From: a virus
Reading direction: 5' to 3' (one strand)
Length of the DNA: 64,000 bases
Virus record (IMG/VR): IMGVR_UViG_3300032284_001133
Location: 20,061 to 84,060 of that record
Below the pieces are notes generated by a model. The model saw only the letters and a program-made list of their open reading frames with translations, did no database searches and was not told the DNA's origin. The translations under genes were made by a program, and so were the position numbers. Positions 10,772-52,406 of this stretch are shown here, in pieces (within the stretch, counting starts at the first letter, position 1; every line of letters begins with the position of its first letter).

Positions 10772-11689
10772 ATGGCTACAGCACAAATAATATCCGCACC
10801 AGGTAGAAGAGTCCGCTACTTAAACAATAAAGACTTATTAGCAGAAATACATAAATCAAAAAATTCGTTTTCAAGTTTTACTAAAAAAGAATACGGACAA
10901 CACGATATAATACTCCCTAATTTAGAAAAAGTAAACATCAGGACTGTTGCAGAAGCCAAACGCAATAGAGCTAAACGACTAGGATTAGAAATTTTCAATG
11001 CCGCTAGGGCCGCAGGTGATAAAAAAATTAAACTAGCAGAATGTATTCCAGATTATAAAACCATTGCAAAAACAGATGTCGTTATTCGTATTATGACATT
11101 TGATCATATTCCTCTGGCACCAGGTCGTAAAAAGACTACTAAGACTACAGCAGACGCACATGATAAAGTTAATTTTCCACCATTTCAACATTGGAAATTT
11201 GACGAACACGATAATTTAATTTGCGTAGGCAAAAGTCACTGGAAAGGAACTGTAGAAAAGGGCTACTTTAGTAAGGATCATGGAAGAATTACAGAAGACC
11301 TAGGTAAAATGTATATTAAACTCAGCGAGCGATATGCACAGCGCAGTAACTGGCGCGGTTATACATATATTGATGAAATGAAAGGACAGGCTATTTTACA
11401 GTTAAGTCAAATTGGTCTGCAATTTGATGAATCAAAATCAGAAAATCCGTTTGCCTATTATACTGCCGCAGTAACTAATTCATTTACTCGCATACTTAAT
11501 CTTGAAAAGAAAAATCAAAATATACGTGATGATATGCTACAAGAAAACGGCCTAACACCAAGCATGACTAGACAACATAAAGAAGAATATGCAGAAGAAA
11601 CTGCTCGACAGGCTGAAATATATAAAAATATGCGTATGCCTAAGAGCGAAGATATAAGTCCGGACGAAGAAGTTGGAACAGAGGCTTGA
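10772..11689 (+). CDS. 55: Late transcription sigma factor gp55
   Basis: This 305-residue protein ends in the sigma-like core of gp55: R-Y-A-Q-R-S-N-W-R-G-Y-T-Y near residues 189-201, then E-M-K-G-Q-A-I-L-Q-L, N-P-F-A-Y-Y-T-A-A-V and F-T-R-I-L-N-L-E-K-K. These correspond to the minimal sigma region 2 of T4 gp55, which recognises TATAAATA late promoters and recruits the sliding clamp via a C-terminal tail. A Y-L-N-N-K-D-L-L segment near residue 17 parallels the start of T4 gp55. It is longer than T4 gp55 (185 residues) because of about 100 inserted residues in the first half. The ribosome-binding site AAGGAGG is strong. The many TAAATA motifs in the window are its presumed targets. Confidence 0.85.
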   Translation: MATAQIISAPGRRVRYLNNKDLLAEIHKSKNSFSSFTKKEYGQHDIILPNLEKVNIRTVAEAKRNRAKRLGLEIFNAARAAGDKKIKLAECIPDYKTIAKTDVVIRIMTFDHIPLAPGRKKTTKTTADAHDKVNFPPFQHWKFDEHDNLICVGKSHWKGTVEKGYFSKDHGRITEDLGKMYIKLSERYAQRSNWRGYTYIDEMKGQAILQLSQIGLQFDESKSENPFAYYTAAVTNSFTRILNLEKKNQNIRDDMLQENGLTPSMTRQHKEEYAEETARQAEIYKNMRMPKSEDISPDEEVGTEA

Positions 11690-15035: not shown

Positions 15036-15190
15036 TGTTCCATCTAAGAGAAGAAGGCCAGGTAGTACGTAACGGATTTAACTTTTACAAGTTGTCCGAT
15101 AAAAGTAATGCTGGTTTTATTTTTAGATTAGGAACAAAATTTTTTACACTTAGGTATTCTAAAATAAGGAAGACCTGGATTATTGGATGA
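15035..15190 (+). CDS. 51-residue small protein, translationally coupled
   Basis: An ATG at 15035 shares its A with the preceding stop (TAATG), and the frame ends in a TGA at 15188-15190 that overlaps the next ATG by ATGA. It encodes 51 residues starting M-F-H-L-R-E-E-G-Q-V and ending K-T-W-I-I-G, with a mixed beta-type pattern (N-G-F-N-F-Y-K-L, then G-F-I-F-R-L-G-T-K-F-F-T-L). The perfect fit between its neighbours, with no other coding frame in the gap, makes it a likely real gene. No family is recognised. Confidence 0.65.
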   Translation: MFHLREEGQVVRNGFNFYKLSDKSNAGFIFRLGTKFFTLRYSKIRKTWIIG

Positions 15191-15612
15191 CTTGGACTTT
15201 TCAAGGTACTTTAGTTGAAGAACTCCCCGAAGACTGTGTTGGGTTTGTGTATCTAATAACCAATACAATCACAGGACGCAAGTATATTGGCAAAAAATTG
15301 GCAAAATTTGCAAAAACAACATATAAGACTATAAAATTAAAAAACGGTAACAAGAAAAAGAAGAAAATTAGAGGCAAAATAGAAAGCGACTGGAAAACAT
15401 ATTACGGTTCAAACATAGAATTAAACAAAGACGTAGAAACCTTAGGCACAAATAACTTCACTAGAGAAATATTACATTATTGTAAAAGTAAAGCAGAAAC
15501 ATCTTACATTGAGGCCCGTGAACAATTCGACCGCAAAGTATTAGAATCAGATGACTACTATAACGGACATATACAAGTTCGTGTACATGGCTCACACATT
15601 ATAAAATCTTAG
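15187..15612 (+). CDS. GIY-YIG family endonuclease
   Basis: This 141-residue protein has a GIY-YIG nuclease core: G-F-V-Y-L-I-T-N near residues 19-26 in place of the GIY motif, G-R-K-Y-I-G-K-K with the YIG motif near residue 34, and a C-terminal helix S-Y-I-E-A-R-E-Q-F with the expected metal-binding Glu. The Lys-rich stretch at residues ~52-65 (K-N-G-N-K-K-K-K-K) is an insertion in the core. Such small single-domain enzymes resemble the Seg homing endonucleases of T4-like phages and the catalytic part of I-TevI, but no separate DNA-binding domain is present. It is the last gene of the gp47-gp46 run and is directly followed by the putative structured RNA. Confidence 0.8.
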   Translation: MTWTFQGTLVEELPEDCVGFVYLITNTITGRKYIGKKLAKFAKTTYKTIKLKNGNKKKKKIRGKIESDWKTYYGSNIELNKDVETLGTNNFTREILHYCKSKAETSYIEAREQFDRKVLESDDYYNGHIQVRVHGSHIIKS

Positions 15613-15960
15613 GCATATAATCGGTAATAAGCTCGCACCTGCTAATTTCGGGTGCCCAAAAATCTGGACTTAGAGTCGCAGGGATGGAAACCTCTTGCCG
15701 AAAAGAGTACTCAACTACTATCCTTTACAGGACGTCGATCGCAAATTGCCGCGGTTTAGTTGTTTGAAAAGAGTTAAAAAGGCCTAATGAAGGGAGAAAA
15801 ACCCTACGTTTACATTTATGATAGCGTATATTTGTAAACCGCCGTTGAATGAAGACGGAGCTCGTGGTACCGGTCAACCGCCACTGTAATGCTCTAACGC
15901 TGTGTGACTTGTTGAACTCAGATAATGTCATTTTTTCGCCCGGCAGGGCGAAGTGTGACC
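15613..15960 (+). ncRNA. Candidate structured non-coding RNA, family unknown
   Basis: This stretch has no convincing ORF (the only sizeable one, on the minus strand, looks accidental) and is less A-rich than the neighbouring genes. It contains a series of inverted repeats: GCACC 15635-15639 with GGTGC 15651-15655; GACT 15667-15670 with AGTC 15674-15677; CTCTT 15692-15696 with AAGAG 15703-15707; CAACTA 15712-15717 with TAGTTG 15757-15762; GGG 15792-15794 with CCC 15802-15804; GTTTACA 15808-15814 with TGTAAAC 15833-15839; CCGT 15842-15845 with ACGG 15855-15858; CGCCC 15937-15941 with GGGCG 15946-15950. Such a chain suggests a folded RNA. Local resemblance to group I intron P7 and to cobalamin-riboswitch boxes was seen but not in the right order. 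Ends are approximate; strand is inferred from the neighbouring genes. Confidence 0.5.
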
Positions 15961-17950: not shown

Positions 17951-20923
17951 ATGGCAGACGTAACCGGTACAATAGGTAATGAACATGTAGAACTAGATAA
18001 TGCGGCTACCGAAGCCACGTTAAGAGCATTACTGGCGGCTACCAAAGGCCTAAACCAATCTATTATCAAAATGCAACCTAAAACAGGTGGCAAAGGAGGA
18101 ATAGAAGAACTTGATAAAGCATCTGAAAAAACTGGAAAAAGTTTTGCATCTCTGGTAAAATCTGTCGGTCCTGCTGGAGTAGCATTTGATACATTAACCA
18201 AAGCGGCCAGCGGCTTAGGAGGAGTTCTTGGTTCTTTGATGGCAGGCGCTGTTAAGACTGGCGAGAATTTAATAGAGTTAGGTAAGGCGGCCGTTGAAGG
18301 CAACGCTCGAATGAGTGGTGTCTATAAGGCGTTTGAAGATCTTCCTTTTGGTATAGGTAAAGTTGCTAGCCTGTTTACCATGTTAGCAAAAATACAAGAA
18401 GCTAACCTAGATGCTTATAGACAGATGAGCAAGTCTGGTGTTAATTTTTCAGGTAGCCTAACAGATTTAAGATTAGCGGCCAGTGATGCTTATATGACCT
18501 TAGATCAGTTTACAAATTTTGTTGGAAAAAATTCTGAAGCATTAGCTATGATGGGAGAAACTGCTGATAAAGGTGCAAAGAATTTTGTTAGACTAAGTCA
18601 TTCTTTAATTGACAGTAAATTAGGTGATCAATTAATGGCTATGGGTATGACTACTGAAGAAATTAATCAAGGCATGGCCAATTATATTAAAATGTCAGGC
18701 GGTCGAACTGATAAAGAAATGCAAGATACTGCAAAATTATCAAAAGCCGCAGGTGAATATATGATGCAGTTAGATGCTCTTTCACAGATAACAGGTGAAA
18801 GCAGAGCCGCTGAAGAAGAAAAATTAAAACAAGCCACGCAAGACGCACAGTTTGAAGCAATGATGCAAGGGCTAGATGAAGAAGGCAGAAAGAAAGCTAT
18901 GGCGGCTATGGCCAATGCTTTAGCCACAGGTGGCAAAGGAGCCGCCGATGCATTAAAAGCTAAAATGTTAGGAATTCCACCTGTTACAGAAGCCGCTCAA
19001 AATTTTGTTGCATTGTATCCTAAAGCCGCATCTCATATTGAAAGAATGGGAGATGCTGTAACTGATCAAAAGAAAGGCATAGATGATGTTAATCACATAA
19101 ACGGTGAAGCCGCAGTTGCATTAGCAAAAGAAAACAAAGCCTTAGGTAAAGAAACACGAGCCGCAATAACTGCGGCAGGCGGTTCGTTAGCAAGCACTAT
19201 TACTGATGCTACTAAAACTCAAAACATGCTTAACGCTAAAGGAATTAAAACAGCCGACGACTACGATAAGATGATGAAAGACATTGCTAAGAATGAAGAA
19301 GATCGTAGAAAAAGTGAAGCAGAAGCCGCAGCCGCGGCAGAAAAATCTTTAAAAGATTTAGGCAATACTATATTATCTGCTTTAACTCCTGTGTTTAAAG
19401 CTATGGCTCCGTTGGTTACTGATATTGTAAGAAATTTTGCCAGCTGGCTTAAGAGCGTTGACATGGACAAGTTAGGTAAAGATATGGCAGGGCTTGCTAA
19501 AGCTGTTACAGAATACATGTCAAATTTATTCAGTCCAGAAGGTAGACAAAAAATTATTAATGATATCACATACTACATGAAATTAATGTTAATTGAAATT
19601 AAAAAAGCTATCATTCCTTGGTATAGTGAAGCCGATGCTGAAAAAGATAAGAAAAAATTAGATGAACAAAAATCTGCATATGATGCTCAGGCTGAACAAG
19701 TTAGACTTGCTACAGGTGCAGAGCAAAGAAAAACAGCATTAGCTTTAGACGGAGACAAAGCGGCTCAAGAAAGAGTTAAAGCTGAAAACAAAGCATCAGA
19801 AGAACGAATTAAAAATGCAAACGAACAATTAAGAGATGGTAAGATTACTAAAGAACAAGCCGAAGCTATAAGAAAACGCGAACAAGCGGACATTGATAAA
19901 AAACAAGCGGCCTTGGACATGTTAGATGCAAAGACTGGTAAACTTGATGATGCAAAACGTAAAGAATTACAAGCTCAGCAAAAGACACTTGAAGAAGGTG
20001 GAGCTGTCGCAAAAGAAAAGATGGACAAAGTCCGAGAACAAGAAATTAAAGATAAGTCAAAAGAAGGAACACTTACAGGAAAAGCAACTGGCGCTGTAGC
20101 TGGAGGTGTTACAGGAGGTGTTGCTGGTTCAGTCGGTGGAGCAACAGCAGGTGCATGGGTAGGTGGTGCAATAGGAACCTTGCTTGGACCTTTAGGAACT
20201 GTAGCCGGAGCGGCCATAGGTTCAAGTGTTGGATCTTGGCTAGGCGGCGCCGGTGGTGCATTACTCGGTGGTTACATCGGTGAAGAAGTTGGCAATGCTG
20301 TAACAGCGCCATCTGAAAAAGCGGTAAGAAAATCTATGGATGAGAAAAAGGCCTTAGAAAAACGTGCCGCAGGAGGTCCGGTTAAGAAAGGTGAGCCTTA
20401 CTGGGTGGGAGAAAGCGGCCCAGAAATTATGAAACCAGATACCGGAGGACAGATTATTCCTAACAGTATGTTACAGATGCCTGGAACTAAAGACATTAAT
20501 AGCAGTTTTGATGCTATGACTAAAGAGTTAAAATCTCAAAGTATGGGATTACCTCCTATGTCTAAAGACGCATTAAATTTTAGTTCTTTGATGCCCGATG
20601 GATTGTCAACAGCGATGAAGACCGTTGGAGCTAAAACTAGCCAACTAACTGAAGATACAAAAGAAAAAGACAAAAAATCACCAACCTTTGAAGAAATGGT
20701 TGCAGGGTTTGGTAAATCAGTACAAGAAAAAGTACTAGGAGTTACCAATAATGCAACTACTCCTCACATGACAGCAGAGCAAGGAAAAAATTTAGTATCC
20801 GAGCTACAACTGTTAAATAAACAAACAGCAGACATGTTGAAATACATTCGTGATACAGCAGATCATGCTAAAAACACAGTAGATGCAACAAAAGCTCTTA
20901 ACGGGAACATATTCGCTAGATAA
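17951..20923 (+). CDS. Tail tape measure protein (gp29 role)
   Basis: This 990-residue protein is long, Ala/Lys/Glu-rich and largely helical, as expected of the ruler that sets tail length and helps DNA cross the membrane. Residues ~560-705 form a highly charged coiled coil (K-Q-A-A-L-D-M-L-D-A-K type). Residues ~710-790 are a Gly/Ala-rich hydrophobic stretch (G-G-V-A-G-S-V-G-G-A) that may insert in membranes. Near residue 810 is A-G-G-P-V-K-K-G-E-P-Y-W-V-G-E-S-G-P-E, a motif typical of tape-measure C-termini. T4 gp29 is 590 residues and a longer ruler would imply a longer tail if the scaling holds. It is placed two bases before portal. The first 20 or so codons of the gene oppose the promoter region of gp26. 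Confidence 0.75.
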   Translation: MADVTGTIGNEHVELDNAATEATLRALLAATKGLNQSIIKMQPKTGGKGGIEELDKASEKTGKSFASLVKSVGPAGVAFDTLTKAASGLGGVLGSLMAGAVKTGENLIELGKAAVEGNARMSGVYKAFEDLPFGIGKVASLFTMLAKIQEANLDAYRQMSKSGVNFSGSLTDLRLAASDAYMTLDQFTNFVGKNSEALAMMGETADKGAKNFVRLSHSLIDSKLGDQLMAMGMTTEEINQGMANYIKMSGGRTDKEMQDTAKLSKAAGEYMMQLDALSQITGESRAAEEEKLKQATQDAQFEAMMQGLDEEGRKKAMAAMANALATGGKGAADALKAKMLGIPPVTEAAQNFVALYPKAASHIERMGDAVTDQKKGIDDVNHINGEAAVALAKENKALGKETRAAITAAGGSLASTITDATKTQNMLNAKGIKTADDYDKMMKDIAKNEEDRRKSEAEAAAAAEKSLKDLGNTILSALTPVFKAMAPLVTDIVRNFASWLKSVDMDKLGKDMAGLAKAVTEYMSNLFSPEGRQKIINDITYYMKLMLIEIKKAIIPWYSEADAEKDKKKLDEQKSAYDAQAEQVRLATGAEQRKTALALDGDKAAQERVKAENKASEERIKNANEQLRDGKITKEQAEAIRKREQADIDKKQAALDMLDAKTGKLDDAKRKELQAQQKTLEEGGAVAKEKMDKVREQEIKDKSKEGTLTGKATGAVAGGVTGGVAGSVGGATAGAWVGGAIGTLLGPLGTVAGAAIGSSVGSWLGGAGGALLGGYIGEEVGNAVTAPSEKAVRKSMDEKKALEKRAAGGPVKKGEPYWVGESGPEIMKPDTGGQIIPNSMLQMPGTKDINSSFDAMTKELKSQSMGLPPMSKDALNFSSLMPDGLSTAMKTVGAKTSQLTEDTKEKDKKSPTFEEMVAGFGKSVQEKVLGVTNNATTPHMTAEQGKNLVSELQLLNKQTADMLKYIRDTADHAKNTVDATKALNGNIFAR

Positions 20924-27090: not shown

Positions 27091-27116
27091 TCTTTTTAAG
27101 GTTATTAAACTACACC

Positions 27117-27142
27117 AAAAAAGCACCTTCGGGTGCTTTTTT
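27117..27142 (+). terminator. Strong intrinsic terminator after gp23
   Basis: AAAAAAGCACC, a TTCG tetraloop and GGTGCTTTTTT form an eleven-pair stem with a six-T tail, 27 bases behind the capsid gene stop. The UUCG loop closed by C-G is exceptionally stable. It probably acts from both directions and isolates head genes from the fibre genes. Confidence 0.9.
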
Positions 27143-27150
27143 GTTAAATA
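27143..27150 (+). promoter_or_regulatory. Late-promoter-like motif behind the gp23 terminator
   Basis: GTTAAATA followed by C overlaps the end of the terminator and lies about 71 bases before the next start at 27222. It would restart late transcription for the virion genes downstream. Confidence 0.4.
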
Positions 27151-27221
27151 CAGTGTCTAGATTATTATGCTGTACCCACAGCGTAGGGCCTAGAACGCTC
27201 ATAATTCAAAGGAGAAACAAA

Positions 27222-28133
27222 ATGGGACGTCCTCTAAAAAAGAGATATTTTTTAAAAAATAATACACCTTCTGATGTAGTAAAATACGAAGGTGTTACAG
27301 TAAGCATCAATTCTAATGGTACTGGTTACTCAACCGGTGCTGTAGCAAAATTTTCAGCACCACAAGATGCCGCAGGTGTTACAGCAACATTAGGCTTAAC
27401 AATTACTCCAGCAGGTGGAATTACTGCCGCTAGTATTACTAACGTTGGTTCTGGTTATAATGCCGCCCCAACAGTTACAGTAACTCCAGCCGCTACACAA
27501 AATAACACAGCAGTAGCAACTTCTTCAAGTTTCACACTTACAAACGTTTCTGGTGTAAACGGAATTTATCCAGGTATGTTAGTTAGTGGTTGGAGCGGAT
27601 TAACAGCTTTCTCGCATGTTGCTAGTGTAGGTACAAATACAATTACACTTGATAAAGCTATTACTGCTTCAGGTGGCTCTACTGGAACTAGTGTAACATT
27701 TAGCTATTCTGATACAGGTACTGGTGCTACATTTACAGTTGGACTAACACCAACTGAAATTCTTCCAGGTACTATTGCGGCAACAGCATACTTAACAACA
27801 GGTTCAGGTGCTGTAACTTCTGCTATTATTAAACAAGAAGGCTCACGTAGCTATCTAGTTGAAAATACACAAGGCCGTGGCCGTGTTAAATTGGCTACAA
27901 CTGATGCTTTAACAGCAGGTACAATGAAAATTATTGCTACCGACGGAGCAGGTTCTACGTATTATGTAAAAAAATTAACTGCACGTAAAGTTTCTTTAGT
28001 TAGTCGTACAAACACAAGTACAGGAGTAATTACTTTAACCAGTGATGGTACTTATACTGTTGGTACAGCAAAATGGACTGCAGGTGTAGCAACAGGTACA
28101 CAACAAGTTACTATTGGTACAAATACAATTTAA
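27222..28133 (+). CDS. Beta-rich virion structural protein
   Basis: The start is placed at 27222, preceded by AAAGGAG; the frame is open 27 codons further upstream over the terminator and promoter region. This gives 303 residues beginning M-G-R-P-L-K-K-R-Y-F. The sequence is rich in Thr/Gly/Ala/Val and has the loop pattern V-G-S-G-Y-N-A-A-P-T-V-T at about residues 78-89, common in phage surface beta-domains. A more conserved-looking segment E-G-S-R-S-Y-L-V-E-N-T-Q-G-R-G follows near residue 210. I do not recognise the specific family; a head decoration or tail surface protein is plausible. It stands alone between two terminators, suggesting an independent high-level transcript. Confidence 0.7.
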   Translation: MGRPLKKRYFLKNNTPSDVVKYEGVTVSINSNGTGYSTGAVAKFSAPQDAAGVTATLGLTITPAGGITAASITNVGSGYNAAPTVTVTPAATQNNTAVATSSSFTLTNVSGVNGIYPGMLVSGWSGLTAFSHVASVGTNTITLDKAITASGGSTGTSVTFSYSDTGTGATFTVGLTPTEILPGTIAATAYLTTGSGAVTSAIIKQEGSRSYLVENTQGRGRVKLATTDALTAGTMKIIATDGAGSTYYVKKLTARKVSLVSRTNTSTGVITLTSDGTYTVGTAKWTAGVATGTQQVTIGTNTI

Positions 28134-31076: not shown

Positions 31077-31208
31077 CCTTTAAAAACCACAAATATCCTA
31101 GCGGGAATAAATACATTCGATGCCAGAATTTTTGGCAGTCGATCATACAGTGGTAAACCCGCTATGTAAGGTGGTTATCCGTGAAACACGGTGTATTGAG
31201 GAGCTGAC
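31077..31208 (+). promoter_or_regulatory. Leader with late-promoter motif and inverted repeats
   Basis: No gene is seen. AATAAATAC (31106-31114) is a late promoter candidate about 95 bases before the next ATG. TGCCA/TGGCA (31121-31137) forms a hairpin that extends with flanking TCGA copies. TAGCGGG (31099-31105) is complementary to CCCGCTA (31158-31164). A GAGGAGCTGAC site serves the 1705-residue gene. Confidence 0.5.
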
Positions 31209-47689: not shown

Positions 47690-50600
47690 ATGGCATTCAA
47701 TAAAGATTTTATTGTCAAGCAAGGCATAGTAATTGAAGGTACAGCAACTACCTATTCAACAAATTCGGGTTCATTAATAGTTGGTGGCGGAGCCGGAGTC
47801 GGCCAAAATTTATATGTCAACAATGCTTTTGTAAGATCTGGCAATACAATCGTAGGAGGTCCTAACGGAGATTTTCAACTAGGTGGAGGCATTTCTTCAC
47901 TAGGTGCATATTATTTAGATCCTGTAACAAACGGTACCACTGACTTTTCTATAATTAATTATTTAGGTACTGCTACATTAGATGTAGTTAATACTAGTAT
48001 TATCAATAATGCTGTTGCATTATATATTGACGGATCTGTCAATACAGGAAGTAATAATATATCGATTGTTAATACATGGTCAGTATACATAAACAGCGGT
48101 AATATGTACTTAGGAGGTACCAGTGTAAACACACAAACTCCTGGAGGTAACGCATTAATCGTACAAGGCGGTATTAGTGGTAAAGGTTTATACATAACCG
48201 GCGGTGGTACATTATTTGGAAATTTTAATTTAAATGGTAGCCCGGTTTTAACAAAAGCAACTCAAAACGCAGGTAATCAAACATTCTCTGGTGATGTTGA
48301 ATTTACAACAAGTACACAATCTACTTCTCCTATCACAGGCGGCGTTAAAATAGATGGCGGTTTAGGTGTTCAAGGAAATATTTTTCTTGGAGGAACACTA
48401 GGTGCTACTACAGGTACATTTTCTTCATTACTAAATTCAACTAGTACAACTACTGGCGCATTAATATTAGCCGGTGGTATTGGTATTGGACAAGATTTAT
48501 ACGCCAGTAATGGATATTTTGTTTCTGGCAACGCTACAACTGGATCGGTTGCAGGTAATAGTTTAGAAGTTACCAATGGTGGCGGCTTAGGAGTTAGCGG
48601 AAGTGCTTTAATTCAAGGCCAGGTAGTTATTACAAATTCTACACCTTCTGCATTAAATGTTGCAGGTGGCGCATCTATCGGTAATACATTAAATGTATCT
48701 GACATCAATATTACAGATTCATCTTCTGCTACTTCGGCAATTAATGCTCCATTAACTGTAGCAGGTGGTGTTGGTATTAGTGGTAATGTTATTATTGCTA
48801 GTACAGAAGCAAGCACAGGAACAACAGCAAGTAACGCTTTGTATGTTGCAGGTGGAGTTGGCATCGGTGAGTCGTTAGTAGTTGGCGGAGATACTGTACT
48901 TTTAGGTAGTTTGACATTATTAAATGTTGGAACACAGTTAACAGTTAATAGTACACAGACAAGCATTGTTGATCCGGTAATTGATCTTGGTACAAATGTA
49001 AACAATACTCCATTAACAACATTTGATGTTTTTGATAAAGGTATCATAATACATTATAATGATGGACCAACTTCTTCTACAGATAATCATGCATTTATGG
49101 GATATGAACATACTCAAGGTAGGTTCATGTTCAAGAAAAATATATACCCAGGTGGTATTGAACAATTTCCAGTAACAGATTTAATAGATACAGGAACATA
49201 CGCTACTTTAGATGCAGGAACGATAAACCTTTCTGATACAACAAGTGCAGGAACAGGTACAGGTGCAATTACTGTAGCTGGTGGTGTTAGCATAAGTGAA
49301 AATATTTACGTTAGCGGAAACACCAGTACATTTGTTGGAACTAACTTTAATTTAAAAGGCATCGACGGCAATACGTTACAGTTACCAAACGGTGGAATTG
49401 GTGCCCAATACCTGTTTATTGCTACTTCTGCAACAATCAACGGCGCAAATATTCTTACTACTGCTACAGCTAACGGTAATATCGGCGGAGTATTTACGGC
49501 ATCGTTTACGTTTATTAATGGTGCAGAATCAAATAGCACAGATACAGGTGCGGTAGTTATTAAACATGGTTTAGGTGTTGGCGGAAATGTTAATGTTGGC
49601 GGTAATTTTGTTACCACTGGAACTGCTTACATATGGTCTACTCTAAATTCTACATCAACATTTACTGGCGCTCTAGTAGTACAAGGCGGTGTGGGTATTG
49701 GCCAAGATGTAAACATAGGTGGAAATTTAGAAACAACAGGAACAGTTTACATATGGTCTAATTTAAATTCGATGAGTACCACAACTGGCTCTTTAGTAGT
49801 AGGTGGTGGTGTTGGCCTTGGCGGAGATGTTTATATTGGCGGCACATTATTTTATTCTAATACCTTAGATATTATAAGCACACAAAATTCGACAAGTACA
49901 ACAACTGGAGCTTTAGTTGTCAGCGGCGGTGTTGGTATTGGTGAAAATTTAAACGTTGGCGGAATTATTAATGCCACAACCGCAAATTTATTCACAATAA
50001 ATCTTACAGGTGGTGTAGATTCTATATCAACTACAACAGGTGATTTGACTGTAACCGGTGGAGTAGGTATTGGTCAAGATGTAAACATAGGTGGTTATGT
50101 AACAGTAGGTTCTACAGCAACATCATATGCTACTACAGCTGGAGCATTGACTGTACAAGGTGGAGTTGGCGTTGGTGGCAATTTATATGTTGCAGGTAGT
50201 ATTGTACGAACTGGAAACATAATGAATCCGGCTTGGGGTACTTCAGGCCAAGGGTTACAATTAACCTCAGCAGTTTATACAGATCTAACATCAATTGGCG
50301 GAAACGCAGGACAAATTGCTGTACATTCAATTGGCCAACCAACAATTATAGGTTCAAATGCTCCTACATGGAGCGATGCGGCTACTCTATATATCGATAA
50401 TGCTCCATTAATCAGCGGTTTGGCTACTGCAACAGGTGTTTGGTCATTATTTGTTAATAACGGACAGGTAAAATTAGCTTCATCTTCTATTAATAACGGA
50501 ACAACAAATACAGGTGCCTTGCAAGTTATAGGAGGCGTTGGTGTTGGTGGTAATATTACATCCGGCGGAACAGTAAAAGGACATCAACTACAGGTTGATA

Positions 50601-50944
50601 ATAATGTTATTACTTCTCCTGCATTATCAGGAATTACTACAAATAGTCCTCAGGCACTTGATATTTTTGTTGGAAATACATTTAGGACTGCAAAATATCT
50701 TGTACAAATTAACGATCAAGGTACTCCTAATTTATTCCATGTTGCTGAAGTTGTAGTTGCCTATGACGGTAGCGGATCTTCAAGCGGTGTTTACATAAGC
50801 CAATATGGTCTTGTAACAAATACTGGTGAATTAGGTACATTTGATGTAGCGTATAGCGGCGGATTTATCACGCTAACCTTTACACCAAACTATACTCCTA
50901 CAAATATGGATATTCAAGCCATTAGAATGGCCATTACCTCCTAA
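47690..50944 (+). CDS. Fibre protein with many Gly-rich repeats (1084 residues)
   Basis: AAGGAATA precedes the ATG by few bases. Most of the protein is a repeat of about 25-60 residues whose core reads T-T-G-A-L-V-V-x-G-G-V-G-I-G-x-N-L-x-V-G-G, at least a dozen copies, probably a long beta-spiral or triple-stranded shaft. A knob-type domain (D-P-V-I-D-L-G-T-N-V, then G-I-I-I-H-Y-N-D-G and F-M-F-K-K) interrupts at about residues 420-500. The C-terminus (F-R-T-A-K-Y-L-V-Q-I, Y-I-S-Q-Y-G-L-V-T-N) is paralogous to that of the 572-residue protein. Fibre role is clear; family name is not. Confidence 0.72.
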   Translation: MAFNKDFIVKQGIVIEGTATTYSTNSGSLIVGGGAGVGQNLYVNNAFVRSGNTIVGGPNGDFQLGGGISSLGAYYLDPVTNGTTDFSIINYLGTATLDVVNTSIINNAVALYIDGSVNTGSNNISIVNTWSVYINSGNMYLGGTSVNTQTPGGNALIVQGGISGKGLYITGGGTLFGNFNLNGSPVLTKATQNAGNQTFSGDVEFTTSTQSTSPITGGVKIDGGLGVQGNIFLGGTLGATTGTFSSLLNSTSTTTGALILAGGIGIGQDLYASNGYFVSGNATTGSVAGNSLEVTNGGGLGVSGSALIQGQVVITNSTPSALNVAGGASIGNTLNVSDINITDSSSATSAINAPLTVAGGVGISGNVIIASTEASTGTTASNALYVAGGVGIGESLVVGGDTVLLGSLTLLNVGTQLTVNSTQTSIVDPVIDLGTNVNNTPLTTFDVFDKGIIIHYNDGPTSSTDNHAFMGYEHTQGRFMFKKNIYPGGIEQFPVTDLIDTGTYATLDAGTINLSDTTSAGTGTGAITVAGGVSISENIYVSGNTSTFVGTNFNLKGIDGNTLQLPNGGIGAQYLFIATSATINGANILTTATANGNIGGVFTASFTFINGAESNSTDTGAVVIKHGLGVGGNVNVGGNFVTTGTAYIWSTLNSTSTFTGALVVQGGVGIGQDVNIGGNLETTGTVYIWSNLNSMSTTTGSLVVGGGVGLGGDVYIGGTLFYSNTLDIISTQNSTSTTTGALVVSGGVGIGENLNVGGIINATTANLFTINLTGGVDSISTTTGDLTVTGGVGIGQDVNIGGYVTVGSTATSYATTAGALTVQGGVGVGGNLYVAGSIVRTGNIMNPAWGTSGQGLQLTSAVYTDLTSIGGNAGQIAVHSIGQPTIIGSNAPTWSDAATLYIDNAPLISGLATATGVWSLFVNNGQVKLASSSINNGTTNTGALQVIGGVGVGGNITSGGTVKGHQLQVDNNVITSPALSGITTNSPQALDIFVGNTFRTAKYLVQINDQGTPNLFHVAEVVVAYDGSGSSSGVYISQYGLVTNTGELGTFDVAYSGGFITLTFTPNYTPTNMDIQAIRMAITS

Positions 50945-50955
50945 TTAACCATAAT

Positions 50956-50985
50956 TTTGTATTTGAATAAATACTCAAATACAAA
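50956..50985 (+). promoter_or_regulatory. 11-bp inverted repeat with late-promoter motif in the loop
   Basis: TTTGTATTTGA (50956-50966) is perfectly complementary to TCAAATACAAA (50975-50985), and the eight-base loop is ATAAATAC, the late-promoter core. It lies 29 bases before the ATG at 51015. It may be promoter plus operator, or a terminator-like structure that also restarts transcription. There is no T run behind it. Confidence 0.6.
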
Positions 50986-51014
50986 GACAGCCGTCATGTG
51001 GAAAGGGAAACTGA

Positions 51015-52406
51015 ATGGCACAACTTGATTTCGTCGTTAAAAACGGCCTAGTAGTTCTTAACGGACAACGGGTCGAATCAACAAGCACTAATACAGGTGC
51101 GGCTATTGTTGCGGGCGGATTAGGTGTCAGCGGTAACATCAATCTTGGTAAAAATCTTACAGTTAACGGATTTAGTACCTTACAAAAAGATGTATATGTT
51201 GGCGGCAATCTAGCAGTTCAATTAAATCAAATCAATACTGGTACTATAACAGTACTGAATACAACCAATTCTACAGGTTCAGCGTTTGGAGCATTAGTAG
51301 TTGCAGGAGGTATTGGTATCGGAGGTGATACCTATGCAACAGGTGATGTAAACGTAGGTAATAATGCAAATATTACCGGCAACGCAAATATTACCGGCAA
51401 CGCAAATATTACCGGCAATTTAATTGCCAATATCATTACAGCAACTACAGCGGTAATTACATCTGAAACTGTTACATATTCTAATATTACTACTGCAAGC
51501 ATTTCAACTGCTACAATTAGTAATCTAATTGTATCTGTTAGTGAAACAAATAACGGATCATTAACAGTTGCAGGTCTTGTTAATTTTAATAATAATACTA
51601 ACTCAACATCAACAACAACCGGTGCATTAATTGTTAGCGGAGGAGTTAGTATTGTAAAAGATTTAAATGTTGGCGGAAATATTGTAGCTCAAGGAAATGT
51701 TGTTGCTAATGGTAACATTGTATTAGGTAAATCTACAAGTACAGATACGTTAACATTAGACGCAGAAGTTAACTCTGATATTATTCCTGCATCAACTGGA
51801 ACATTTAATATTGGTAGTAGCACTCTTCCTTGGAATAGAGTATGGGCAGAAAGTGCAAGATTAATAGGCGGTGTAGATGCAAGTAGTACTACAACCGGTG
51901 ACCTAGTAGTATCAGGCGGTGTAGGTATTGGTGGTACGTTGTGGGCTACTAATGCGTATGTTAATGGACAGTTAGTTGTTACAAACGCAAACTTGGTAAA
52001 CTATGGTGTTGCCGTAATCAATGCAGGCACAGATACTGCGGTAAGTAGTTCGAGCGGTATTGTAACATTATGGGATACCAGCACATTAAAATCAGTTACA
52101 AGTAGAGGTTCAGAAACAACGTCTACAATAAGTATTACAAACACAACATCGAGTACAAGCACAACTACTGGTGCATTAACAGTGGCAGGTGGCGTCGGCG
52201 TTCAGGGAGATATACATGCAAGCGGAAACATTTATAGTTTGCAAGGATCTCCATTAGCTAATATAAAAGTTATAATTTCTTTAACTCCTCCCACAACTGC
52301 AACAAACAATGTTGGAGATTTTTGGATTGATCCGAGTATTGGCGTAGAATATCAATGGGTACAAGATGGATCAAATTTTTATTGGATACAATTTACAGGT
52401 GTATAA
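51015..52406 (+). CDS. Fibre protein with Gly-rich repeats (463 residues)
   Basis: The start has GAAAGGGAAAC upstream. It contains several T-G-A-L-I/V-V-x-G-G-V-G repeats, three exact tandem N-A-N-I-T-G units (residues ~117-134), a segment I-G-S-S-T-L-P-W-N-R-V-W-A-E typical of phage fibre base domains (about 274-287), and a C-terminal domain P-T-T-A-T-N-N-V-G-D-F-W-I-D (about 425-440) of the type seen in fibre ends. It is four bases before the next gene. Probable partner or segment of a multi-protein fibre. Confidence 0.7.
   Translation: MAQLDFVVKNGLVVLNGQRVESTSTNTGAAIVAGGLGVSGNINLGKNLTVNGFSTLQKDVYVGGNLAVQLNQINTGTITVLNTTNSTGSAFGALVVAGGIGIGGDTYATGDVNVGNNANITGNANITGNANITGNLIANIITATTAVITSETVTYSNITTASISTATISNLIVSVSETNNGSLTVAGLVNFNNNTNSTSTTTGALIVSGGVSIVKDLNVGGNIVAQGNVVANGNIVLGKSTSTDTLTLDAEVNSDIIPASTGTFNIGSSTLPWNRVWAESARLIGGVDASSTTTGDLVVSGGVGIGGTLWATNAYVNGQLVVTNANLVNYGVAVINAGTDTAVSSSSGIVTLWDTSTLKSVTSRGSETTSTISITNTTSSTSTTTGALTVAGGVGVQGDIHASGNIYSLQGSPLANIKVIISLTPPTTATNNVGDFWIDPSIGVEYQWVQDGSNFYWIQFTGV
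51363..51416 (+). repeat. Three tandem 18-bp units
   Basis: The 18-base unit with ATATTACCGGC core occurs three times in a row, coding for N-A-N-I-T-G each time. The copies differ by at most one base, so slippage-type expansion is recent. Confidence 0.9.

Follow-up and report, generated by a model that had tools for sequence, protein, structure and literature searches.

A perfect inverted repeat around a predicted late promoter, and the conserved leader behind it, in an apparent T4-superfamily phage

Why should a phage late-promoter motif sit in the loop of a perfect palindrome? The DNA considered here (the window) is a stretch of 64,000 nucleotides from a virus, positions 20,061 to 84,060 of IMG/VR record IMGVR_UViG_3300032284_001133. 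Between two of its fibre-like genes lies an ATAAATA motif enclosed by two 11-nt arms, and the question is whether these arms serve the promoter, act in RNA, or are a local addition. We suspect that the late promoter drives the downstream fibre-like gene into a conserved leader hairpin, and that the inverted repeat was added in this lineage, most likely without consequence for the promoter (a reading to which we give a probability of roughly 0.6). The features that bear on the question are as follows.

10772..11689, plus strand: gp55-like late sigma factor gene (phrog_12791, E 5e-84; phrog_234, E 5.7e-25)
47690..50944, plus strand: upstream fibre-like gene (1084 aa), origin of any read-through RNA
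50956..50966, plus strand: left arm of the inverted repeat, TTTGTATTTGA, without a counterpart at the orthologous junction of relatives
50967..50973, plus strand: ATAAATA, predicted T4-type late promoter core, which together with A50966 matches positions -13 to -6 of T4, the A standing at -13
50975..50985, plus strand: right arm of the inverted repeat, TCAAATACAAA, containing the predicted transcription start at about 50979 (from T4 spacing)
50990..51019, plus strand: predicted leader hairpin of 9 bp, interrupted by two single-base bulges; its loop GGAAAGGGAA spans 51000-51009 and the 3' side of its stem contains the start codon (51015-51017)
51015..52406, plus strand: fibre-like structural gene (463 aa, beginning MAQLDFVVKNGLVV), presumed target of the promoter

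The late promoter and its genomic setting

Judged by its sequence and surroundings, the motif at 50967-50973 makes a convincing candidate for a T4-type late promoter. Eight of the ten ATAAATA copies in the window are intergenic, against an intergenic share of only 3.25%, and among the 128 A/T heptamers none is more enriched than ATAAATA (p 3.6e-9), only its reverse complement ranking equal. The sequence AATAAATA at 50966-50973 is an 8-bp TATA box close to TATAAATA, the motif is concentrated before genes, and a gp55-family sigma factor is encoded by the same phage. The T4 system (gp55/gp33/gp45) shares this core, its placement before structural genes and the sigma factor; in its late promoters an 8-bp box precedes the start by about one helical turn, and nine of the fifty sites listed in the same source have A at -13 (PMC2988020). 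With T4 spacing, transcription would begin at about 50979, within the right arm. The core is also kept at the orthologous junction of relatives, and the first-pass annotation appears to have been right in placing a late promoter before the fibre gene.

The same motif is described for the late promoters of the jumbo phages CBB and GAP32 (PMC5259590), and NATAAATA is given as the late-promoter motif of cyanophage S-PM2 (PMC2984593). Unlike the promoters of these phages and of T4, the copy in the window is enclosed by an 11-bp palindrome. Gene families matched in the window are portal, major head, baseplate hub-lysozyme and SbcC/SbcD-like proteins. Jumbo phages such as Vibrio phage 2.275.O, CBB and GAP32 have head proteins with about 70% identity to the one encoded here. 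From these family matches, the gp55-like sigma factor and the head protein, the window looks like part of a T4-superfamily phage, of which the 84,060-base record may be a fragment. The protein encoded at 51015-52406 has weak PHROG matches to head-decoration and structural families.

Other plus-strand features of the window include an ORF at 15187-15612 that matches the PHROG 'NAD synthetase' as well as several homing endonuclease families, and a Polynucleobacter-1 RNA at 15630-15765 (Rfam RF01718, 111.7 bits, typed sRNA). A freshwater-2 RNA at 27147-27224 (RF02980, 56.8 bits, cis-regulatory type) lies directly 3' of the major capsid gene and a terminator-like hairpin.

Rarity of the palindrome and its absence from relatives

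Positions 50956-50985 read TTTGTATTTGA-ATAAATAC-TCAAATACAAA. The two 11-nt arms are perfect reverse complements and the 8-nt loop ATAAATAC exceeds the core by one base, so the description of ATAAATA as lying in the loop of a perfect 11-bp inverted repeat was accurate. The repeat sits in the 70-nt gap between the ORFs 47690-50944 and 51015-52406. Counted over the whole window, perfect inverted repeats with arms of at least 11 bp and loops of 3-12 have two centres, whereas 300 dinucleotide shuffles average 0.26; at least two such repeats appear in 2.7% of the shuffles and at least one in 23%. The second centre is the terminator-like hairpin at 27116-27143. When the core was held fixed and both sides of the 70-nt gap were shuffled, arms of 11 bp arose in none of 20,000 trials and arms of 10 bp in two. 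Around the other nine ATAAATA copies of the window the arms measure 2-6 bp. The palindrome is rarer than composition predicts, also allowing for the roughly ten cores inspected, which agrees with the earlier claim that it is unlikely by chance and leaves room for selection in this lineage. Two copies of AAATAC lie 8 bases apart at 50970-50982 (AAATACTCAAATAC), and GTATTT stands upstream of them, which would allow shorter alternative hairpins overlapping the palindrome.

Junctions in relatives came from three sources: by protein, by 5' leader, and by promoter with inner arms. The leader scan gave 74 loci, five of which were dropped because no fibre-like protein follows; with the window included, 51 distinct and 43 clustered junctions remain, and 36 junctions (window included) have a TAAATA core and sufficient upstream sequence. 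The closest leader class holds eight distinct sequences, the window among them, and ATAAATA and the leader are kept in all eight. At the core of the seven others, the best perfect arm is 3-4 bp (loop 3-12), or 4-5 bp when longer loops are allowed (six measured). Five of these seven have the core at the very end of the upstream frame, sharing bases with its stop codon or 1 nt beyond it; in L169 and L195 it follows that stop by 36-37 nt, with a terminator in between. The corresponding distance in the window is 22 nt.

Among 72 contigs chosen for the core with the inner 5-bp arms, the arms are 5, 6 and 7 bp long in 49, 19 and 4 cases and never longer than 7 bp, roughly as chance extension would give. 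At 9126-9143 of contig L242, TTTGAATAAATACTCAAA overlaps the stop codon before a small ORF and shares the inner 5 bp of the palindrome; similar sequences occur in several of the 72 contigs.

The relatives, then, keep ATAAATA without the arms, the outcome that the first-pass annotation had itself named as refuting its proposal. The palindrome is not conserved, which argues against the two functions that the first-pass annotation had proposed for it, a binding site for a dimeric regulator or a cruciform. No relative near enough for alignment at the left arm was found, so that the palindrome may be a young functional site in this lineage; most likely it is a recent lineage-specific repeat with little or no function.

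An operator at this one promoter, serving for example autorepression as by I-TevI, would suit the perfect two-fold symmetry over the promoter. A T4 homing endonuclease binds over a late promoter (PMC2988022), and the window encodes at 15187-15612 a protein matching homing-endonuclease families. However, the symmetric site is neither conserved nor repeated. A search for both arms with any 8 nt between them found the palindrome a single time in the 84,060-base record and nowhere else among the IMG/VR contigs scanned (the scan may omit records very near this one). Allowing one mismatch, the arm sequence has four occurrences in the window, two of which are accounted for by the palindrome, where 4.7 are expected. 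The operator of I-TevI resembles its homing site, and the account in PMC2988022 does not, in the part bearing on this, state that it is palindromic. We regard an operator as very unlikely. A DNA cruciform that presents the promoter in its loop and modulates opening is extremely improbable: the arms are perfect and the 8-nt loop contains the core, but the arms are short, A+T-rich and not conserved, and gp55 RNA polymerase recognises a duplex -10 box.

A survey of late promoters in general covered 309 collapsed candidates from 347 unique sites, a candidate being any NTAAATA between genes and at most 150 nt before an ORF, a definition that takes in some sites that are not promoters. Repeats of at least 6 bp surround the core in 20 of the 309, compared with 8.5 in shuffles and 12-32 at six decoy centres in the same stretches. 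For repeats of at least 5 bp the core has 55 and the decoys 32-56, the core standing above five of the six. Arms of at least 8 bp were found at five candidates (the window with 11, L038 with 12, and L147, L180 and one in L076 with 8 each), and 3-15 such repeats at the decoys. The window has the extreme arm length among the 309, the L038 terminator excepted. In L038, at about 3733, ATAAATA falls within an apparent intrinsic terminator after a capsid gene, a motif match that is probably no promoter. A strong general link was not seen, and the survey does not support the palindrome as a family-wide feature of late promoters; any general tendency of palindromes to occur there may be slight.

The palindrome in read-through RNA

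The predicted start lies inside the right arm, so late transcripts would lack the left arm and part of the right one. The hairpin could then form only in read-through RNA, and any role of the palindrome would be there or in DNA. Any activity that it has would most likely be that of an RNA hairpin, in transcripts that read through from the upstream gene. The isolated hairpin has a predicted energy of -10.3 kcal/mol (z -5.6). An intrinsic terminator was considered and rejected: the stem is A+T-rich, with two G/C per 11-bp arm, and is followed by GACAGCC and no T-run.

By a simple rule, 10 of the 36 junctions have a terminator before the promoter, in seven an upstream arm could pair with the ribosome-binding site (RBS; an anti-RBS arm), and 19, the window among them, have neither. 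The terminators suggest that insulation is common here, and the palindrome hairpin might likewise protect the 3' end of the upstream mRNA, be cut by a nuclease or separate the two messages, leaving the RBS unhidden. Its stability is consistent with this, and seg43 of Aeromonas phage 25 offers, by description, a similar case, in which a stable hairpin lies just upstream of an RBS that it does not hide (PMC2988022). Yet the 19 junctions with neither element indicate that insulation is not a rule, and the stem is not that of a terminator; such a boundary role appears quite unlikely.

The seven junctions with anti-RBS arms (L153, L157, L177, L187, L134, L163 and L172) recall another known arrangement. 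In T4 genes e, soc, 49 and I-TevI, read-through RNA is described as hiding the start site and late RNA as exposing it (PMC3014915, PMC2988022), the position of the late promoter leaving the 5' strand of the upstream hairpin out of late transcripts (PMC3014915). In a duplex test, nine of the 36 junctions pass p 0.02 against control windows, two of them (L169, L195) being terminator tracts. The strongest arms (L187, L153, L177 and L157) reach -21 to -24 kcal/mol, stronger than in any of the 300 shuffles. Several of the relatives' arms show G-U variants that preserve pairing. As modelled, these arms would hide the fibre RBS in read-through RNA in the manner of T4 gene e.

Could the window work in the same way, with the palindrome as the apical stem of a read-through structure that hides the RBS, and with a translated late RNA that lacks the left strand? 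By position, the late RNA does lack the upstream arm if T4 spacing holds, and seven relatives have such arms. The minimum-energy fold of 50922-51050 has the palindrome as apical stem on a longer structure; within that structure GCCAUU (50930-50935) pairs with the start-codon region (51014-51019), UCCU (50939-50942) with the Shine-Dalgarno purines (51005-51008) and CCAUA (50949-50953) with the leader (50997-51001); several other 5' ends give similar folds. The mean unpaired probability over five 5' ends of read-through RNA is 0.10 for the start codon and 0.46 for the Shine-Dalgarno loop, compared with 0.21 and 0.89 in RNA beginning at 50979. Only 3.6% of 250 upstream shuffles reach the start-codon value and 1.2% reach both (p 0.036, joint p 0.012, several tests having been made and left uncorrected).

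Other measures point the other way. By the duplex test the window has no anti-RBS arm: its -6.3 kcal/mol is equalled in 62% of the control windows and in 98% of the shuffles. The p value is 0.47 for mean accessibility across the leader and 0.24 for the start codon when a single 5' end is used, and shuffling the upstream sequence together with the palindrome raises the two fractions to 9.6% and 4.8%. Start-codon exposure in the late RNA depends on the chosen 3' end (0.19-0.22 versus 0.36-0.58). Shuffling the palindrome changes the predicted exposure of the start codon in read-through RNA only from 0.10 to 0.13, so the palindrome would hardly be needed and would not be the main part even if masking were real. 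In contrast to the gene e class, its arm ends before the RBS and is unpaired with it, and the masked form is that of some relatives. Masking of the RBS by the palindrome is not supported by the duplex test and has weak support in the accessibility results, and a gene e-type role in the window is unlikely.

A conserved leader hairpin over the fibre start codon

Our preferred reading, a late promoter leading into a conserved leader with the repeat as an addition, turns attention to the sequence that adjoins the palindrome. The leader GTGGARAGGGAAAC precedes the fibre start codon and is conserved in relatives. Alone, the leader of the window is predicted to fold as 50990-51019 with the start codon in the stem, at a stability that is not unusual. 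Thermodynamic z values are weak for the window (-1.2 and -0.7) and L134 (-0.4) and reach -2.3 in each of L135 and L162; L280 lacks such support (z 0.1) and does not fold into the proposed form. The covariance model matches the leader of the window with 44.3 bits, although the window row is itself part of the model.

A protein-led survey gave 33 loci, with the start located in 24: twelve starts are preceded by GTGGARAGGGAAACT and the other twelve by a variant (judged by eye), and in L278 the matched stretch lies downstream of the start. Among the nine loci without a located start, L293-L296 and L302 carry the leader, and L285, L300, L307 and L308 have no match to the leader model up to E 0.1. 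Since this survey was seeded mainly with proteins of leader-found loci and its twelve exact cases were largely known from the leader scan, it is only partly independent of that scan. Searching with a regular expression for the protein N-terminus gave 60 distinct upstream contexts (47 with a stricter expression), nine of them without the exact leader; by inspection, these nine look operon-internal, without a late promoter of their own.

In relatives the stem varies while mostly staying paired. Over 49 distinct contexts, the mean number of outward pairs beyond GU/AC is 3.41, compared with 2.35 (sd 0.17) when the 3' flanks were dealt among loci; none of 5000 deals attained 3.41, by a statistic that ignores shared ancestry. 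In a MAFFT alignment of 47 rows (the 49 contexts with L325, L357 and L306 left out and the window added), 80.4% of cells pair versus 73.8% when shuffled and at most 47.7% when slid, shared ancestry again being ignored. The pair next to GU/AC is AU in 18 rows, GC in 10, GU in 7, CG in 2 and other in 10. Counts of pair types in this alignment show no excess over shuffles. The bulged and unbulged forms of the stem were scored separately, and two of five pairing measures exceed shuffles in neither form; the covariation score of the bulged form is 0.105, with one slid control higher at 0.159. RNAalifold, unaided, finds the same three inner pairs only, at -0.05 kcal/mol.

One prediction was that leaders with a non-T base after AAC would carry its complement before GU. 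It holds in 10 of 12 fibre loci and fails in L325 and L357. Six of the twelve, including L325, lie on contigs already surveyed; of the six new ones five pair, L357 being the exception. The fibre-like L342, which the filter had missed, pairs with one bulge. It is among the 13 of 38 matches not flagged as fibre that also pair at one position or more.

In part of the relatives the 5' strand of the leader can pair upstream instead (GUAAC..GCC..GUUAC). This upstream stem is at least 4 bp long in 15 of 32 GCC clusters, against 8.2 by permutation (shared ancestry ignored), and its GCC is absent in 11 of 43 clusters.

Over 50500-51500, Rfam gives nothing at gathering score. Three matches with E up to 1 are all far below it, and eight of the relatives' loci have no match.

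50500-51500, minus strand: MIR159, 22.3 of 74 bits, E 0.018, below gathering
Over the palindrome: K10_TLS, 19 of 43 bits, E 0.73, below gathering
50500-51500: IsrR, 18.6 of 52 bits, below gathering

Neither the 15 letters of the leader nor such a leader was found in the literature searched, where papers seldom print such strings, and its absence from Rfam and from these papers is weak evidence of novelty. Among named phages, the fibre protein has two weak matches and a 30-nt leader query two matches at E 8. Of three N-terminal fibre queries one had no match; of the junctions reached through these queries, the one read for the leader, L360, is without it, and L359 does not reach the gene start.

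A bolder proposal, which we put forward tentatively and with the odds against it, is that GTGGARAGGGAAAC and its covarying stem form a cis-acting RNA of T4-superfamily phages, absent from the Rfam and literature searches and situated behind fibre late promoters. The start codon would be held in the hairpin, the Shine-Dalgarno loop would be offered to a phage protein or to a specialised ribosome contact, and the hairpin would alternate with the upstream GUAAC-GCC-GUUAC stem, a switch to which the palindrome would have been added locally. The split initiation regions of T4 genes 25 and 38 likewise have an RNA hairpin in the translation initiation region, but there it is described as lying between the Shine-Dalgarno sequence and the start codon (PMC3014915), whereas in the leader of the window the Shine-Dalgarno purines are in the predicted loop and the start codon in the stem.

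A second conserved leader is a candidate at 31077-31208 (plus strand), before a 1705-aa tail fibre gene, where a late promoter is followed by about 95 nt that by eye resemble L127 13630-13729; this stretch has no Rfam match.

Taken as a mechanism, the preferred reading runs as follows. The ATAAATA at 50967-50973 would drive 51015-52406, presumably in dependence on gp55. A late mRNA starting at about 50979 would retain just 7 nt of the palindrome before the conserved leader hairpin, whose loop would display the Shine-Dalgarno purines and whose stem would contain the start codon. The left arm occupies the 22 nt between the upstream stop and the promoter, a stretch whose counterpart in relatives has no room for it in five of seven cases and holds a terminator in two. 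A local template switch may be the origin of the palindrome, which most likely leaves the promoter unaffected.

By itself the palindrome matters little, beyond illustrating that a striking repeat at a promoter can be lineage-specific. The leader matters more, being kept while the sequence before the promoter, with its terminators and masking arms, differs between relatives. Such a conserved leader makes the control of fibre production testable in uncultivated phages, and its hairpin would bring another class of genes under the T4 theme of start-site hairpins.
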